This document shows positions 14,283 to 22,259 of a DNA stretch of 30,469 bases, piece after piece. Each line of letters begins with the position of its first letter. Position 1 is the first letter of the stretch. Position numbers and translations under genes: made by a program. Source of the stretch: a virus; IMG/VR virus record IMGVR_UViG_3300028840_000716, positions 1 to 30,469 of that record. The stretch is one strand, 5' to 3'. The notes below the pieces were generated by a model. The model had not been told where the DNA came from. It saw only the letters and a program-made list of their open reading frames with translations, and made no database searches.

Positions 14283-16133
14283 TTAGGTTTGGTTGGTCAG
14301 GTAGTAGATAGCTTCCTGTTGAAGCGTAGAACCACCGCGGAAAATGGAGGCGAACAAACCGACCTGTCCGTTTGCCATGTAAAGGTATGGGTTGCGCTGT
14401 ACGATCATGCCGGGTTTCTCAACGATGCCATAGAAGTTCCAGTTTCCGAAGAAAATGATCTTGGCGGCGTTGGTGGTGTAGGGTGAAACATCGTCATTGA
14501 TAACGATGGGATAACCCATCAAGCGGTCGGAGGCAATCGCACCGTCGGGGCTTGACTGATAAGCAAAACCACCTGCGGAGTGAGTGACACCGCGCAGATA
14601 CCACTTGGTCACGTTCGCCATCACAAAGGCACATTCCGAAGGCACGTTATATCCTGCGCCAAGATAACCGACAAAGGCAGCCAGTTCAGAGGGCAGGATG
14701 GTGTCAGCGGTTGCCAGAGTGTTAGCAACGGTCGAGCCTGAAGAATCAGCAATACCGAGCGGCTCGGCTGTTCCGGTTCCAGAGTGGAAAATCGTGTTCT
14801 CGGTTGCGGCTTCAGCACGCGCCAAAGCACCGACGAGCCAAGAATCGAAGTTCGTGGTGTTGTACATCAGGAACTCTTCGCTAAACTTCTGCATCTTGGT
14901 GTACTTGTACAGTACCAAATCAACCTGAGCGACTGTCCCTTCTTCCTCAGTGTATGCAGCCGCTTCGAGTGTCTTGGTGAACGCCGTGTGACTGGTCGAT
15001 TCAACAGGCACCAAAAGGTGATCTGCCTGGGTAACAAACTTCTGCGTCGGGAGTTGGCGCACAAATGAAGCGATGTCACGCTTTGCGATGATCTGATTGT
15101 AGAGCGGATCGGGGACAAGGAAACCACCGCTTCCGCCTGTGGTAACGTTCCAAGCCGCCTTAGAATCTTTAATATTGCCATAGGACGAGTCGGGGGTAAT
15201 CAAACCACCGTTCACCTGTCCAGTAGCAACCCAATGTTTGAACGCGGGGACCGCGTCATGTTCTTCGCTGAAACCCAGCTCAGTCATAGTATTAAAAGCG
15301 GGGGCTTTGCGGTTCTTGACTTCCTCAATGGCTTTCTTATAGCCTGCTTCCTCCGCCGCTTTCAAGGCAGCCTGGTTCTCAGCTTCAGCCTTAAGTTCTG
15401 CGTCACGCTTGGCAAGCGCTTCCGCTACCGCCGTATCAACGGCGGATTTGATCTCATCTTCCATGTTAATCTCCGTTTTTGTATTTTGTTCCTCGCCAGT
15501 CTCGGACAACGCCGTATCAGGCGGTAGCAACGATTTCAAGCTCTGTACAGTGTTCCTGTACTCGGCAGGTGTAGGGGTTAGGCTTGCCTCCCCAATAAAC
15601 CACGTTTTAATGTGCATCGCTTTTCCAGCTGGTTCTCTCTCTACCAGATGAGACAATGCACCCGAACTAAATCCCAGCTTCCCCTTTTCAGCCATCGCAT
15701 AAATGGCTTTCTCGTAATCGTCGCGTATGTTCATTTGCGCTTCAGCCCAAACGCCCGCATCCTGGTACTCTGTTCTAATGACTTTCCCAATGGGGCGCTT
15801 CTTGAGCGTTGAGTCCATGCCGTGATTGTAGAGTAGCGGGATGTTGTCAGGGATGTTGATTACAGACTTTGAATCAAAGTAATCCTTTGTCAAGTCTGGA
15901 TCTTCAGCGGTTGAATAGCGGACAAGGAACCCGCCGATCTTCCCATCCCCCAGTGCTTTCAGTTCATCGCTAAAATAAATCAGTTCATCATCCATGCTTT
16001 TCTCTCCTCGTTTGTTCCATATACTCATGCAAGCCGCGACTGCTTGATCGTTCTCGCGTCCTTCGCTCATCATTGCCGGGACACAGGCAGCCATCCATTT
16101 ATTTTTATCGGTATATTTGCTTACATCTGGCAT
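14283..16133 (-). CDS. HK97-type prohead protease-major capsid protein fusion
   Basis: A 616-residue polyprotein. Residues about 1-45 form a small helical leader with two W...C motifs (ending C-M-S-I-W-N-K-R-G). Residues about 48-200 are an S78-type prohead protease: LYNHG with His104, GFSSGA with Ser156/Ser157, and the GEASLTPTPA segment. Residues about 225-275 are an Ala/Glu/Lys coiled coil acting as scaffold (delta domain). Residues about 300-616 are the HK97 capsid fold, starting near the G-G-S-G-G-F-L-V-P-D region. Protease and capsid are usually separate genes. Here self-cleavage should free the capsid from protease and scaffold. A GAGG ribosome binding site lies 6 bases before the ATG, just after a strong hairpin. 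Confidence 0.92.
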   Translation of the reverse strand: MPDVSKYTDKNKWMAACVPAMMSEGRENDQAVAACMSIWNKRGEKSMDDELIYFSDELKALGDGKIGGFLVRYSTAEDPDLTKDYFDSKSVINIPDNIPLLYNHGMDSTLKKRPIGKVIRTEYQDAGVWAEAQMNIRDDYEKAIYAMAEKGKLGFSSGALSHLVEREPAGKAMHIKTWFIGEASLTPTPAEYRNTVQSLKSLLPPDTALSETGEEQNTKTEINMEDEIKSAVDTAVAEALAKRDAELKAEAENQAALKAAEEAGYKKAIEEVKNRKAPAFNTMTELGFSEEHDAVPAFKHWVATGQVNGGLITPDSSYGNIKDSKAAWNVTTGGSGGFLVPDPLYNQIIAKRDIASFVRQLPTQKFVTQADHLLVPVESTSHTAFTKTLEAAAYTEEEGTVAQVDLVLYKYTKMQKFSEEFLMYNTTNFDSWLVGALARAEAATENTIFHSGTGTAEPLGIADSSGSTVANTLATADTILPSELAAFVGYLGAGYNVPSECAFVMANVTKWYLRGVTHSAGGFAYQSSPDGAIASDRLMGYPIVINDDVSPYTTNAAKIIFFGNWNFYGIVEKPGMIVQRNPYLYMANGQVGLFASIFRGGSTLQQEAIYYLTNQT

Positions 16134-16149
16134 ACTTCACCTCAACAAC

Positions 16150-16193
16150 AAAAAACCGACTTCACCAACCTGTTTCCAGATCGGTAAAGCCGG
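16150..16193 (-). terminator. terminator-like hairpin before the capsid gene
   Basis: In minus-strand RNA, 16193-16177 pairs with 16172-16156 over 17 consecutive base pairs, four of them G-U, closing a GAAA tetraloop and followed by six U (16155-16150). On the plus strand the G-U pairs become A-C mismatches, so the minus-strand RNA is the folded one. This is the shape of an intrinsic terminator. It ends 8 bases before the capsid ribosome binding site, so it may instead work as an attenuator or a 5' stabiliser for capsid mRNA. I saw only a weak promoter candidate in the 16194-16238 spacer (TTGTAA and TAGACT, 15 bases apart). Confidence 0.75.
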
Positions 16194-16238
16194 TACAAAG
16201 TCTAGCGGCGTTTATTTAGTTACAAATAATTTACCACA

Positions 16239-17237
16239 CTAGGCAAGTTTTGACAATAGTCTGTCAAGATGTTCGTCAATGTTGTCGGGTAAGACTTGCA
16301 TATAATCGCACTTGTTACAGGCGGCGTTTTCGTTCCTGCGTCCTGAAAGATGCATCATTCTAAACTTCTTCAGCCTTTCCCCGTTCCAAATGTCTGTTAT
16401 TGATTCGTCCTTCACGTTCCCGATTTGATGAAGATGGAATGCGTCATCGTTGCAGATTGAAACATCCCCGTTACTTGAGACTGCCAGCATGTATAAAACA
16501 AGCGGACATGCGACTTTATACTTTCTCGGTGTCCCGTCGAATGATTGATCCGTTCCCATCTTCCAATCGTATAACTCGGACGTTGACCATCCATGCAAGC
16601 CTTCAATGGCAATATAATCACATCTGTCGGAAAAGTCATCCAGGAACTTTTGCTGCTGTTCTTTCGTCAAGTTTGTGTCAGCGATCTTGCAGCTTATTTT
16701 CACATCCCCGCGCCTTTGGTACAGGTCCAACAGGTTTGAGCGGTATAACTCATAATCCACCCGCTTCTGTGTTACGTCAAAAAATGACTGTGCATCGAAC
16801 CCGTTTACAGAGATCCCGATCATGTCCAACCCACAGTCAATCAACTCCTGGTTTGTTTCCGGTGACAATGTACTCCCGTTTGTCTTTACCCAAATCTGCT
16901 CGCTTATATCCATGTAACGGGCATAACGAACCATTTTAGTGAAGTCGGGATTAAGCAGGCTCTCCCCGTCTTTGTATAAATTCAGCATCTTGAGCGGTTG
17001 CGGGAACTCTGCGATCCCGTCTATAATCCCCTTGAACATCTCAAAATTCATCATCTGAACTTTGCGCCCCATCTCCCGTAATAGTTTGGGGTGTCCCGTT
17101 GGGCAAAATACACAACGGAAATTACAAGCGTTCGTAGGCTCGATGAACATCGTCAAAGGCGTATCGCGTGGGAACTCTTCGATTATGTCAATCTTACGCT
17201 CTCCCCTCAGTTCTCTTGCCTGAATTTTAGCCGCCAT
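16239..17237 (-). CDS. radical SAM/SPASM-domain enzyme
   Basis: A protein of about 332 residues, counted from the ATG at 17237 that overlaps the dehydrogenase gene by 11 bases; an upstream start at 17285 would give 348. The motif C-N-F-R-C-V-F-C (Cys38, Cys42, Cys45) binds the radical SAM iron-sulfur cluster. The C-terminal part has the SPASM arrangement: C-P near the middle, S-N-G-D-V-S-I-C-N-D-D, and a closing A-C-N-K-C-D-Y. Such enzymes reductively cleave S-adenosylmethionine to start radical chemistry; SPASM members modify peptides or aminoglycoside-type sugars. As last gene of the sugar cassette it might oxidise, dehydrate or epimerise the sugar, or modify a peptide; the substrate is unknown. 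Confidence 0.85.
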   Translation of the reverse strand: MAAKIQARELRGERKIDIIEEFPRDTPLTMFIEPTNACNFRCVFCPTGHPKLLREMGRKVQMMNFEMFKGIIDGIAEFPQPLKMLNLYKDGESLLNPDFTKMVRYARYMDISEQIWVKTNGSTLSPETNQELIDCGLDMIGISVNGFDAQSFFDVTQKRVDYELYRSNLLDLYQRRGDVKISCKIADTNLTKEQQQKFLDDFSDRCDYIAIEGLHGWSTSELYDWKMGTDQSFDGTPRKYKVACPLVLYMLAVSSNGDVSICNDDAFHLHQIGNVKDESITDIWNGERLKKFRMMHLSGRRNENAACNKCDYMQVLPDNIDEHLDRLLSKLA

Positions 17238-17907
17238 TCTTAACCATCCATCCTCCATCGACAACCACAGTTTGACCGTAAACAAACTGCGCTTGTGTCA
17301 GGTAGTAAATCGCCTGCGCTATCTCTTCAGGCGTTCCAAATCGACACGCCGGGGTGATGCCGTTCAGAAAGTCTTTGCGGTTCTTTGGGATTATATCCGT
17401 CATGTCTGTCTCGATCAGCCCAGGCGCTACCGCATTTACTCTTATCTTCGGGGCAAGTTCAACCGCCAGAGCCCGCGTCAATCCTAGTAAAGCATGTTTG
17501 GCGGCAACATATCCCACGATATTTCTGGCGCCCTGTAATGCGGCTGTGGATAATACGTTGATGATGCTCCCGCTTTTCATGTGCTTTGCCGCCTGCTGGG
17601 ACAAATCGAATGGAGCGGTAACCATCAACTCCAAATCGCGTTTAAATTGCGTAGTTTCGTAAGTAACTGCTTTTTGCTGATACTGCGCTCCCGCGTTATT
17701 GACCAGGATGTCAATCCCGCCCAAACTGTCAACAACCCGCTCGACTACTCTAAACCTATCATGGATCTTCGATAAATCCGCCTGAATGAACAAATCACAA
17801 TCAACGGGAGTTCTTGAAATGACTGCAACCTTTATTTTGTGCTTCTTGAATAATTTTACAGTTGCCGCGCCGATGCCGCGCGAACCGCCAGTTACTAAAG
17901 CGATCAT
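17227..17907 (-). CDS. short-chain dehydrogenase/reductase (FabG-like)
   Basis: A 226-residue classical SDR of full but compact length. It has the nucleotide-binding T-G-G-S-R-G-I-G at residues 6-13, NNAG at 70-73, catalytic Ser120, and the Y133-x3-K137 pair in YVAAK. It ends with the V-V-D-G-G-W pattern of FabG-type enzymes. It should be an NAD(P)H-dependent oxidoreductase acting on a carbonyl or hydroxyl. In this operon the likely substrate is a keto group of the branched nucleotide sugar, for example the acetyl carbonyl left by a YerE-type reaction. It overlaps the methyltransferase stop as ATGA. Confidence 0.88.
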   Translation of the reverse strand: MIALVTGGSRGIGAATVKLFKKHKIKVAVISRTPVDCDLFIQADLSKIHDRFRVVERVVDSLGGIDILVNNAGAQYQQKAVTYETTQFKRDLELMVTAPFDLSQQAAKHMKSGSIINVLSTAALQGARNIVGYVAAKHALLGLTRALAVELAPKIRVNAVAPGLIETDMTDIIPKNRKDFLNGITPACRFGTPEEIAQAIYYLTQAQFVYGQTVVVDGGWMVKNGG

Positions 17908-18908
17908 ATTATTATCAACTCGTTTGTTACACCCATCGCCTTTATATTCTCAATCAATAGTTCTTTTTGACTTTGCGAGACAATCAAGATGGGGTGATCG
18001 GTGTCCGGGCGCTCTTTTACTGGCAATCCTTTTATCGTCTGCCCCCTATAAGCCGGGTCATTGTCTATAAAATATTTTATATTCGGGTTGCACCTGGTTA
18101 GAAGATGCAGGGCAATATCCCCGCACCCCCATAAAACAAGTTCCTTATCTCCGAGTTCGTCTATTTTCTGAACCTTCTCTGCTATGTTTTTTAGCACATA
18201 TTGCTTTGATGACCCTGCAATATCAGCGGATTTATAGAATATGTACATCCTGGCGCTCATAAACCGCTCTTTATAAAGTTCTGTTTCCAACAACTCAAAC
18301 CCGAACCGCTGGCATAAATTCAGGATGTCATTTATTCTGAAGTGGTTTATATGTACCTGGTGGTAATCGAGTATTGGCATTTCTTTGGGTAAATCGAACG
18401 CAGCCCGCCCTGCGTCGGGTACATCTATAATCAACCCACCATCGTCTTTCAATGAGTTTGATATCATGGTCATGGCTGATTCCAGATCGTAAATGTGTTC
18501 CAATACATGCTCAGCCACAACGCAATCAACAAGCGGCGGCATAATGTCACCCGCGTTGTATGTGATGACATCCTTGAATCCGACGTTGCGTAATAGTTTC
18601 TCAAGCCCGCTATCACCGCCGCCAAAGTCAACCACCCGGCTCTTACGCTTGAAATGATCCCTGACATAACCCGCACGCTTGGCGAGCCTATGGCGGCAAA
18701 AGTCATCCACCACGCCATAACCATAACGCTCGTTATAATAACGGGTGTAATCATCCTGTGTTACGTTTGGATTGTCACCGTAAATCATTCCGCACTCACA
18801 TTTCAGCCATTCAAGATAAGGCGGTTTTGTCCATCCGTCAGGGACTATAAAATCACTTCTCCATAAAAAATCACGTTTATCACTTTTACAAACCGGGCAA
18901 TTTCTCAT
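17904..18908 (-). CDS. three-domain sugar C-methyltransferase
   Basis: A 334-residue protein with the order seen in TylCIII/NovU-type sugar C-methyltransferases. An N-terminal zinc-binding part has C4-x2-C7 and C37-x-C39. A class I SAM methyltransferase domain carries V-V-D-F-G-G-G-D-S-G near residue 94 and an A-E-H-V-L-E-H motif. A C-terminal Rossmann-like part has L-W-G-C-G-D and I-D-N-D-P. Those enzymes methylate a carbon next to a keto group of a nucleotide 4-keto-6-deoxysugar. It is shorter than the usual 400-410 residues, mostly in the N-terminal and linker parts. Its neighbours make a keto-deoxysugar substrate plausible. It could also be a general carbohydrate methyltransferase. Confidence 0.75.
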   Translation of the reverse strand: MRNCPVCKSDKRDFLWRSDFIVPDGWTKPPYLEWLKCECGMIYGDNPNVTQDDYTRYYNERYGYGVVDDFCRHRLAKRAGYVRDHFKRKSRVVDFGGGDSGLEKLLRNVGFKDVITYNAGDIMPPLVDCVVAEHVLEHIYDLESAMTMISNSLKDDGGLIIDVPDAGRAAFDLPKEMPILDYHQVHINHFRINDILNLCQRFGFELLETELYKERFMSARMYIFYKSADIAGSSKQYVLKNIAEKVQKIDELGDKELVLWGCGDIALHLLTRCNPNIKYFIDNDPAYRGQTIKGLPVKERPDTDHPILIVSQSQKELLIENIKAMGVTNELIII

Positions 18909-18910
18909 TG

Positions 18911-19549
18911 TTATCCTTTCGGTACATAGTATGGCATGGGTACATCTTTTTCAATGTATTCAATCTTTGCGCCTGTGAAAGCGCTTATTCTTTCAGCCAG
19001 TCGTTTTATGGTCTGTGGGCGTTTGCTTCCAATATCTCGTATTTCGCCTGATTCGCCAGTCAGTAATAAATCCCACATTTGACGCGCCATTTCTGAGCCA
19101 TGCATGTAAGACCTGACAGTCGAACCGTCGCCCCAAACTTCGAGCGGTTTTCCTTCGCGTGCGGATTTGATGAACTGTGTATATGCTTTGCCATCATCCA
19201 GACCCTTTCCAAAGAAAGTAAATAATCTGGCGATTACAGCAGTTACGCCGCTTTCAATGCAGTACCATTCCCAAATCCGTTTATTTTGTGCGTATTCCGT
19301 TTGAGCGTTGGAATACACTATCCCAGATGAAGCGTAAAGCATACGGGCGCAAAACCATTCCACCGCATTTATAACGGGCAATGGGGAAACGTTCGCAAGG
19401 TGAACATAATAATCATAACGCTCCTGTGTCCATTTCATTGACTCAAATTCAGAACGCCCAATGTAGCGACATTCCAGTTCTGGCGGTTGCGTCTTTCGCA
19501 TCCACATTCCGACGAAGCCTGTACCACCGTCAATTAATACTTTGTTCAT
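18911..19549 (-). CDS. short NAD-dependent epimerase/reductase (extended SDR)
   Basis: A 212-residue protein with the GGTGFVG dinucleotide motif at the N-terminus, an S-S-G-I-V-Y segment, and an active-site-like Y-x3-K in YAQNK. These match extended SDRs acting on nucleotide sugars (epimerases, dehydratases, 4-ketoreductases). It is about 100 residues shorter than the usual 300-320, but key motifs are retained, so it looks compact rather than broken. It is coupled to the 3-dehydrase by an ATGA overlap. In yersiniose A synthesis the reductase YerF follows YerE; this protein or the SDR downstream could fill that role. Confidence 0.78.
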   Translation of the reverse strand: MNKVLIDGGTGFVGMWMRKTQPPELECRYIGRSEFESMKWTQERYDYYVHLANVSPLPVINAVEWFCARMLYASSGIVYSNAQTEYAQNKRIWEWYCIESGVTAVIARLFTFFGKGLDDGKAYTQFIKSAREGKPLEVWGDGSTVRSYMHGSEMARQMWDLLLTGESGEIRDIGSKRPQTIKRLAERISAFTGAKIEYIEKDVPMPYYVPKG

Positions 19550-20670
19550 TTGAAAAACTCGTGCATGGATTCGATTACATAATTCATCATATCGTTATCA
19601 ATTCCCGGAAAGCATCCGACCCAAAGACCCTGTTCGTGGATCTTGTTCGCGCCTTTCAAATCACCAATGACGTGTATCTCGGTTTCCCTGTAAGCAGGTT
19701 GTCTCATAATGTTTCCTGCCATGATCGGACGGTTGCCGATTTCCTTCTTATCCAGGAATCTGGCTAATTCATTTCGCCTGTCAGTCAGAAACGCTAATCC
19801 AAACCATGACGGGCTCGAGCCTTCCGTCGCCTCCACGAACTCAAGCGGTAAATCTTCCAGGTTGGCACGTAAATAGTATTGGTTCTCTTTTCGTATCCGT
19901 GTAAATCTTTCAAGCCTGTCGAGCTGGGCGCACAACGCCGCCGCCTCGAAGTCAGTACTTTGCAGGTTGTAACCGATCTCTGAATACGTGTACTTGTGAT
20001 CGTAGTCGTATGAAAATCTTTTCCCACATGTATTATCTTCGCCAGGCTCGCACCAACAATCCCTCCCCCACATCATAAACCTGTCAATGTTTAGTTTCAG
20101 CTTCGGGCTGTCAGTCAACACAATCCCGCCGCCTCCACCAGTAATATGATGAGCCGGGTAAAACGAAGCGGTGGACATTACGCCAACTCTGCCAACCATC
20201 CTCCCGTGAATTGTTGAGCCAAGAGCGTCAGAACAATCCTCGATTATCGGAAGTCTGTAACTTGCGTAGTGAGTTAAATCCATTGGATTGCCCAAAGTAT
20301 GAGCGAACAGCATGGCACGTATGCTATCAATGTCCACATCCACATTTACAGCGTTCAGCGTCTTGGGATCTGCATCCACCAGAACGGGAACATAACCGCG
20401 CTGAATGATTGCGTTCACGGTAGTCGGGAAGTTCACCGCGCTTGTCAATACCTTTGAGCCTTTCGGCATACTCAAGGCGGACATGGCGAGCAATAAAGCG
20501 CTCGATCCAGAGTTACAGAACGAACCAAAACGCGCCCCCATGAAATCAGCCAATCCACGTTCAAACCTGCGCGTCCATTCGCCCGGTCCGTAGTGACTGG
20601 ATTCCGCAACCTTTATAATATTGTCGCGCTCTTCCTGTCCTGTTACCTGTCCTGAAATGGGGACTTTCAT
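19546..20670 (-). CDS. RfbH/DdhC (E1)-type CDP-4-keto-6-deoxyglucose 3-dehydrase
   Basis: A 374-residue member of the DegT/DnrJ/EryC1 fold, counted from the ATG at 20670 (ATGA overlap with the previous stop). In aminotransferases of this fold a lysine binds the cofactor; here the segment is S-F-Y-P-A-H-H-I-T, with His174 in its place. This is the diagnostic change in E1/RfbH and ColD, which remove the C3 hydroxyl instead of transferring an amino group. Four cysteines, C146-x58-C205-x-C207-x7-C215 within RDCWCEPGEDNTCGKRF, match the [2Fe-2S] ligand spacing of E1. That assigns it to the iron-sulfur, CDP-sugar type. It is shorter than RfbH (about 437). E1 needs a separate reductase (E3/DdhD), which is absent here. 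Confidence 0.9.
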   Translation of the reverse strand: MKVPISGQVTGQEERDNIIKVAESSHYGPGEWTRRFERGLADFMGARFGSFCNSGSSALLLAMSALSMPKGSKVLTSAVNFPTTVNAIIQRGYVPVLVDADPKTLNAVNVDVDIDSIRAMLFAHTLGNPMDLTHYASYRLPIIEDCSDALGSTIHGRMVGRVGVMSTASFYPAHHITGGGGGIVLTDSPKLKLNIDRFMMWGRDCWCEPGEDNTCGKRFSYDYDHKYTYSEIGYNLQSTDFEAAALCAQLDRLERFTRIRKENQYYLRANLEDLPLEFVEATEGSSPSWFGLAFLTDRRNELARFLDKKEIGNRPIMAGNIMRQPAYRETEIHVIGDLKGANKIHEQGLWVGCFPGIDNDMMNYVIESMHEFFK

Positions 20671-22259
20671 AACATCCACCTTTCAAAGTCAATATGCGGG
20701 TACATATCATACAAAGGCATGGCGGTCTGAATCCCGTCAGATGTAAGCATTGAATCGTATCTAGGCGGGCGTTCTTCGTTGCCTGTCTTTATTTCGGTAA
20801 TGTCAACGCCGTAAATCTCAGCGATCTTGTTTATATCCACAAACTCAAATTCACTCCCGACATGCCGCCCATCGAAGAACCTGTCTTGTGTTAGTTTGAT
20901 GGAACGGTAACCGCCGTTATTCAAATAGTAAAACTTTATAGGCAGTTTCAAACGTCTTACGGTGTCAAGTTCTTGAATATTGAGTTGAAACGAACCATCC
21001 CCATCAATACAGGTGACAGGCTTTCCGCTTGCCAGTGCTGCACCAATCGCGGCGGGGATGCCGAAACCCATGGCACCCAGCCCCATCGTTGAAAACATCC
21101 GCTGCCCTGCTTTCAGCACCACTGAAAGCCATAGTTCATCCAAAGTAACACCCGATGAGCCTGAAACGATCACATCGTCAAATTTGATTTGTTTTACCCA
21201 ATCGTAGGAAATGTGGAACTCCTGAAAGACTTTCTCGCAATATTCCAGCCAGTCACGATCCGCCGACCTTGACACAGCCCAATGATTCAATAAAACCTTC
21301 TGCATGAAGATTTCAGCGTCGGCATTTACCAGTAAGGCGTTCTCCGTCTTTTCGAGTTCCGCTTTGTCAACATCAACCACGACCTTGACGGCATTGGGGC
21401 AGAACTGGTTTTTGTCATACCCTGTAATGGTTTGATCCAGCCTCGTACCGATGAACAGAACAAAATCAGCGTTTTGTAGAATGAAGTTAGGACCGCGCGA
21501 AGCCACAGCACCAGGACAGCCAAAATATAAAAAGCTCCAATGAGAAAGGATGTCCATCGCTCCCCACGTACTCAGAACGGGGATGTTGAGCAATTTGACA
21601 AACTCTAATACATTCCTTGTTCTTGCCCCGTTACCCAAAACCAATACAGGGCGCTTGGCTTCATTCAATAGTCTTATAGTTTCGGTGATTTCTGTTTTTA
21701 AGTCCGGGACTTCGTAATCTTCCACGCTGAAAGGAATTAACTTTTCCGGGTTTATCTGTGCGCTCTGAACGTCTAAAGGAATATCGAGCCAAACGGGACC
21801 GCGCCGTCCTGTTGTCGCCTCGTGTATTGCCCTTTCAAGATGGTATCTGATTGTATTGGGTTCTCTGATCGTGACGGCGTACTTGGTTATCGATTCGACA
21901 ATCGTGACAATATCCAGTTCTTGAATACCGTATTGACGGACGCCACGTCCATTTATCATGTCGGCACGTTTCACCTGTCCTGAAATCACGATCATGGGAG
22001 TTGATTCGCACCACGCACCCGCTACGCCCGTTATGGCGTTCGTTCCTCCCGGTCCCGTAGTAACTAGACAGACGCCCATCCCATTTATACGGGAGTAAGC
22101 CTCCGCCGCGATTGCGGCGGCTTGTTCGTGCAGCATTGGCACATCCATCTTTTTGATACCGACTGAATCGTTCAGGTGCATCGCGCCCCCGCCTGAAACC
22201 ATAAATATGTGCTTTACATATTTTGAAAGGAAGTCAACAACGTAATCACTTAGTTTCAC
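20667..22259 (-). CDS. YerE-like thiamine-diphosphate-dependent carboligase (acetolactate synthase fold)
   Basis: A 530-residue three-domain enzyme of the acetolactate synthase family. The catalytic glutamate is Glu45 in M-L-H-E-Q-A-A. The ThDP/Mg2+ motif runs from G-D-G-S (420-423) to N-N (447-448). The central domain resembles the FAD/nucleotide-binding domain of this family. The C-terminus ends in P-P-R-Y-D-S-M-L-T-S-D-G and a P-L-Y-D-M-Y-P pattern, which I associate with lipopolysaccharide-cluster members rather than IlvB. YerE transfers a two-carbon acetyl unit from pyruvate to a 4-keto-3,6-dideoxysugar, and pairing with an RfbH-type enzyme supports that role. The start is GTG at 22259 with an AGAAAGG site 7 bases upstream. 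A true acetolactate synthase is less likely, as no regulatory subunit or branched-chain genes are near. Confidence 0.85.
   Translation of the reverse strand: MKLSDYVVDFLSKYVKHIFMVSGGGAMHLNDSVGIKKMDVPMLHEQAAAIAAEAYSRINGMGVCLVTTGPGGTNAITGVAGAWCESTPMIVISGQVKRADMINGRGVRQYGIQELDIVTIVESITKYAVTIREPNTIRYHLERAIHEATTGRRGPVWLDIPLDVQSAQINPEKLIPFSVEDYEVPDLKTEITETIRLLNEAKRPVLVLGNGARTRNVLEFVKLLNIPVLSTWGAMDILSHWSFLYFGCPGAVASRGPNFILQNADFVLFIGTRLDQTITGYDKNQFCPNAVKVVVDVDKAELEKTENALLVNADAEIFMQKVLLNHWAVSRSADRDWLEYCEKVFQEFHISYDWVKQIKFDDVIVSGSSGVTLDELWLSVVLKAGQRMFSTMGLGAMGFGIPAAIGAALASGKPVTCIDGDGSFQLNIQELDTVRRLKLPIKFYYLNNGGYRSIKLTQDRFFDGRHVGSEFEFVDINKIAEIYGVDITEIKTGNEERPPRYDSMLTSDGIQTAMPLYDMYPHIDFERWML

Follow-up and report, generated by a model that had tools for sequence, protein, structure and literature searches.

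In most virions the capsid is among the most abundantly made proteins. This study concerns a phage locus in which the capsid start codon is directly preceded by a hairpin with every outward sign of a strong transcription terminator, and asks what such an element might do there. The window, meaning the whole stretch of DNA analysed, is a 30,469-nt virus record in IMG/VR (IMGVR_UViG_3300028840_000716). In the direction of transcription its genes run from terminase and portal, through several small genes, to a sugar-type cassette, the capsid gene, and finally the head-tail and tail genes. The cassette (16239-22259) comprises genes for a TPP enzyme, a DegT aminotransferase, an epimerase, a methyltransferase, an SDR protein and a radical SAM-SPASM protein, the last of which (16239-17285, minus strand; Pfam) is the final cassette gene. 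The capsid gene (14283-16133, minus strand) is a prohead protease-major capsid protein fusion with a product of 616 aa. The C-terminal half of this product belongs to the HK97-type capsid proteins (Pfam Phage_capsid, E = 2.1e-34; PHROG major head protein), and the N-terminal portion, judged from the alignment, looks like a prohead protease. The ribosome-binding site of the gene is GAGGTGA (16137-16143, minus strand). By terminase, the closest named phages are Marinitoga viruses, at 52%, and relatives within IMG/VR reach 80% identity.

The hairpin and its conservation

The hairpin (16155-16194, minus strand) reads ACCGGCTTTACCGATCTG-GAAA-CAGGTTGGTGAAGTCGGT from 16194 to 16155 and is followed by T as far as 16150, giving a U6 tract (16150-16155) that ends 6 bases short of the ribosome-binding site at 16143-16137. 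Its stem has 18 bp, made up of 17 bp at 16193-16156 and one additional A-U pair, with four G-U pairs among them, and is capped by a GAAA loop. A 66-nt segment of minus-strand RNA folds at -30.9 kcal/mol, against a mean of -13.9 for shuffled sequences (z = -6.5), and none of 200 shuffles equalled it. The plus strand folds much more weakly (-12.1 kcal/mol, z = -2.3) because the stem includes G-U pairs. The earlier note, written from the letters alone, had described a GAAA-loop hairpin with a U6 tract in full terminator form that folds only in minus-strand RNA on account of its four G-U pairs, and both descriptions are borne out by these values. Within the region a crude consensus scan returned 20 terminator-like sites where 18.9 were expected by chance, with the hairpin at 16150-16194 ranking first at 18 pairs. 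A thermodynamic scan likewise placed it as the strongest on the minus strand of the window (-28.9 kcal/mol), ahead of a gapped, intragenic runner-up (-22.1). The sequence features of an intrinsic terminator are thus all present, namely a stable, G+C-containing, short-loop hairpin (-28.9 to -30.9 kcal/mol) and an adjoining U-tract. Neither the window nor any of 17 relatives gave a gathering-level match to an Rfam covariance model, and a relaxed Rfam search gave a sole match, on the plus strand, with E = 2.

Relatives were reached via a terminase search and capsid alignments. A direct nucleotide search of known phages, a search with the hairpin pattern, and single-protein searches with the capsid and radical SAM proteins gave no match, and a capsid alignment of eight rows proved too divergent for use as a query. 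Relatives with a homologous capsid carry a hairpin and a T-tract ahead of the capsid gene. A strict scan of 28 loci (235 kb) yielded 34 gene-strand terminators, of which 24 are the pre-capsid one, and in 22 of the 28 loci the pre-capsid terminator was the strongest. In the four loci that did not pass the strict filter (L027, L073, L231 and L245), the corresponding position is occupied by a hairpin that is bulged, weaker or tailed in another way. A small reading frame separates the hairpin from the capsid gene in L011 and L231, and in L229 the capsid start lies about 100 nt from the hairpin. Three further capsid loci (L309, L325 and L328) also have a hairpin, found with a U-tract/ribosome-site pattern that itself required the T-tract; that of L325 is weak (-10 kcal/mol). 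Between phages the spelling of the hairpin is mostly unrelated, and what is kept is the pairing, the T-tract and the position.

The closest relative, L216, has a capsid 85% identical to that of the window. Over its full length the hairpin is 67.5% identical; four pairs have changed in both partners, three in a single partner and one is broken, so that 97% of cells are still paired, and the U6-G stretch is unaltered despite the heavily changed stem. The earlier note had named a loss of the structure among close relatives as an observation that would count against it, and no such loss occurred. These comparisons also bear on whether the hairpin might be a stability or processing element at the 5' end of the capsid mRNA instead of a terminator. 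A hairpin a few bases ahead of a highly used ribosome-binding site could indeed protect the message, but such an element needs no U-tract, and the T-tracts behind the hairpins of relatives, together with the unchanged U6-G in L216, make this explanation very unlikely.

Promoter, start box and leader

Upstream of the hairpin lies a predicted capsid-leader promoter spanning 16256-16228 on the minus strand, with a -35 hexamer TTGTCA (16251-16256) found by consensus scan, a spacing of 17 bases, and an extended -10 in which TGTGG precedes TAAATT (16228-16238). The -35 falls within the 3' end of the radical SAM-SPASM gene. The extended -10 was the top unaligned motif upstream of 30 terminators, scoring 195.8 in an alignment-free search of the 200 bases upstream of them, compared with 85-95 in shuffles. 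At the predicted +1 stands a conserved box, AACTAAATA (16213-16221, minus strand), which matches a leader motif AAYYGAATA (score 83.0; shuffles at most 45.9). This motif occurs at the predicted +1, with the exact spacing after the -10 that is seen in the window, in 13 of the 28 loci. Two loci found via an independent pattern (L309 and L328) show the same promoter, spacing and +1 box. The promoter with TTGAATA alone proved unspecific as a search pattern, yielding 120 matches that were mostly other promoters. A box resembling CCGYTAGACTTTG immediately ahead of the hairpin exceeded its shuffles by only a slight to moderate margin, and we make no claim for it. In many contigs, L100, L102, L104, L106, L107, L112, L118 and L123 among them, differing genes are preceded by a near-identical combination of promoter and 5' leader (AAGTTGACAGGNTGGCATGGTGTGGTACACTG..GAAC-TTGAATATCAGACAGCGAGGTATACAGTATGA), as if one unit had been copied around a phage family.

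The transcribed leader ahead of the hairpin (16195-16221, minus strand) would be 27 nt long and is 100% identical to that of L216; the identity extends from the +1 through base nine of the hairpin (36 aligned bases), apart from a single-base insertion in L216. Immediately upstream, in the coding sequence for the radical SAM protein, identity between the two is only 66%, with no identical run longer than 11. This identity beside diverged flanks, taken with the kept pairing of the hairpin, indicates selection on the leader sequence and on hairpin pairing. Sequence comparison thus shows conservation of the promoter, the +1 box, the leader sequence, the hairpin pairing, the U-tract and the position of the unit, and it supports a hairpin at 16155-16194 of complete intrinsic-terminator form, under selection, between a predicted promoter and the capsid gene.

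A promoter, a conserved sequence and a terminator of its own are also what would be expected if the leader were itself the product, that is, a self-terminated regulatory RNA of about 72 nt, with capsid mRNA arising by incidental read-through or from upstream promoters. A precedent is lambda 6S RNA, a leader RNA with this promoter-leader-terminator layout. Among relatives, however, the length of the leader before the hairpin ranges from about 25 to 120 nt and most of its sequence is highly variable, while its place ahead of the capsid gene is constant, which renders a leader RNA made for its own sake distinctly unlikely.

Distribution among cassettes, capsids and hosts

The earlier note had placed the hairpin at the border between cassette and capsid gene and had proposed that it sets the ratio between their transcripts. 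The border position is exact in the window and in L216, and a sugar-type cassette lies directly upstream of the capsid leader in the window (16239-22259), L090 (8578-17322), L216, L218, L219, L224 and L234. Cassette gene order is reshuffled among relatives, and in L011 a methyltransferase is the only cassette gene found. The hairpin is nevertheless kept where no cassette gene was detected at that place (L005, L008, L012, L017, L223, L225, L226, L231 and L233), and likewise where other cassette genes adjoin the site (L218, L219, L224 and G001, a 60 kb record among the terminase relatives that carries the same cassette in another gene order). The location therefore holds for the window and its closest relative, and the proposed purpose is contradicted: a terminator that exists to mark this border is scarcely credible, and an effect on the cassette/capsid transcript ratio may be a by-product.

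The pre-capsid unit is also bounded on other sides. It is not a generic feature of HK97 phages: in eight others only 13-20 nt separate the capsid gene from the gene ahead of it, too short a gap to hold a terminator. Several relatives by terminase whose capsids are of another type lack it too. Nor is it universal among protease-capsid fusions, since only one clear case (L360) was found among 30 homologues from Anaerolineae-class genomes. Of 396 genomes in the class to which an uncultured Anaerolineae bacterium (MAG) belongs, 46 carry relatives of the fusion (L355-L384), which hints at the bacterial group that hosts these phages. In more distant relatives, strong terminators lie immediately ahead of scaffold-like genes (L019 at 6143, L033 at 15784, L052 at 3748 and L256 at 12196). 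On the minus strand of L330, upstream of about 7655, a terminator of -36.9 kcal/mol precedes a protease-like gene whose leader carries several direct repeats that include GAGCTAACGT. These cases suggest similar wiring elsewhere, with the scaffold- and protease-like genes judged by eye.

Proposed read-through to the capsid gene and its parallels

With promoter, strong terminator and capsid start codon in succession, read-through is the only obvious route from this promoter to a capsid mRNA; a second promoter between terminator and ATG is ruled out by a space of 16 bases. The layout thus supports, for the leader promoter, the earlier expectation that capsid synthesis past the terminator needs read-through or antitermination. 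We consider it probable, at roughly 60%, that the hairpin is an intrinsic terminator closing a conserved, capsid-dedicated promoter-leader-terminator gate that is opened by regulated read-through. RNA polymerase would initiate at the extended -10 promoter, transcribe the short leader and encounter the terminator just ahead of the capsid ribosome-binding site, by default releasing a leader RNA of about 72 nt. On some condition, presumably late in infection, read-through would produce capsid mRNA. Promoter activity, termination, read-through and any factor involved are here inferred from sequence. Opening might depend on a factor, from phage or host, that acts on the +1 box or on the promoter-proximal complex in the way Q works at lambda pR'-tR'; alternatively, a short antiterminator stem might be stabilised and so sequester the 5' arm of the terminator.

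For the second of these routes, a candidate stem GCCG-N13-CGGC (16189-16209, minus strand) overlaps the terminator 5' arm, with a weak energy of -3.0 kcal/mol. Many leaders can form a stem of 4-6 bp with a loop of 10-18 nt whose 3' arm is the beginning of the terminator 5' arm, for example CTCCG-N15-CGGAG in L011 and CACCG-N14-CGGTG in L224. When leaders were scored with their own versus swapped terminators, pairing gave p = 0.025 initially and, in a non-redundant set with four added leaders, p = 0.007 for loops of 10-18 nt, the loop range having been picked after looking; loops of 3-9 and 19-27 nt gave no signal. Two of the four added leaders lack the stem and the other two have weak stems only. 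We regard the stem as a lead with moderate statistical support, not as a result. A stronger version is rather doubtful. In it, synthesis of the major capsid protein is gated by a clade-wide RNA switch of a kind not described before, built from the start box and a covarying antiterminator, which passes polymerase only upon a signal from the phage, perhaps an assembly protein.

Constitutive leakiness would suffice to make capsid mRNA, and a terminator with a U-tract is all that would be required if it simply shielded the capsid gene from upstream transcription and passed a fixed share of polymerases with no regulator. In keeping with this, no antiterminator gene was recognised in a PHROGs scan among ten early or other genes of G001; the window itself is a fragment. 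Such a passive leak leaves unexplained both the 100% identical leader with its +1 box and the placing of the promoter ahead of the terminator and not behind it, and we hold it to be unlikely; leader conservation, the +1 box and partner-specific pairing favour regulation, of the Q type or by attenuation. Counting against the regulated gate are the negative scan for an antiterminator among those ten G001 genes, the weak antiterminator stems, the intervening frames in L011 and L231, the gap in L229 and the distant homologues that have no hairpin.

Given the usual abundance of capsid protein, a strong terminator that selection has kept ahead of its start codon throughout a set of uncultured phages suggests a dedicated control step in virion production. 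If the gate exists, these phages, which are without known transcription control, should make a short leader RNA that ends at the terminator and should possess a means of antitermination; with some thirty natural variants to draw on, its parts could be tested directly in reporters.

The open-access literature searched yielded no account of a terminator placed between a capsid gene and its promoter. The T7-like phage LUZ100 has a local capsid promoter, which serves the phage polymerase, and a terminator after the capsid gene (PMC10134795). The window resembles it in having a predicted capsid promoter of its own and an adjacent terminator, and differs in that the terminator sits between the two. 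The RAT sites of BglG/LicT are attenuators in which an RNA antiterminator overlaps a terminator. Similarly, the short upstream stem-loop of the window could share bases with the terminator 5' arm; unlike in RAT attenuators, the candidate stems have just 4-6 bp and loops of 10-18 nt, the comparison being one of layout and not of RAT sequence. Late control of the lambda type combines pR', a qut site, a terminator and the antiterminator Q (PMC6266700). The window unit departs from it in standing directly ahead of the capsid gene, in its far shorter leader, and in a conserved +1 box in place of an identified qut site or, among the ten G001 genes scanned, a Q homologue. In layout, lambda-type control at pR' is nonetheless the nearest analogue, with a promoter and leader followed by a terminator that is to be read through toward late genes.
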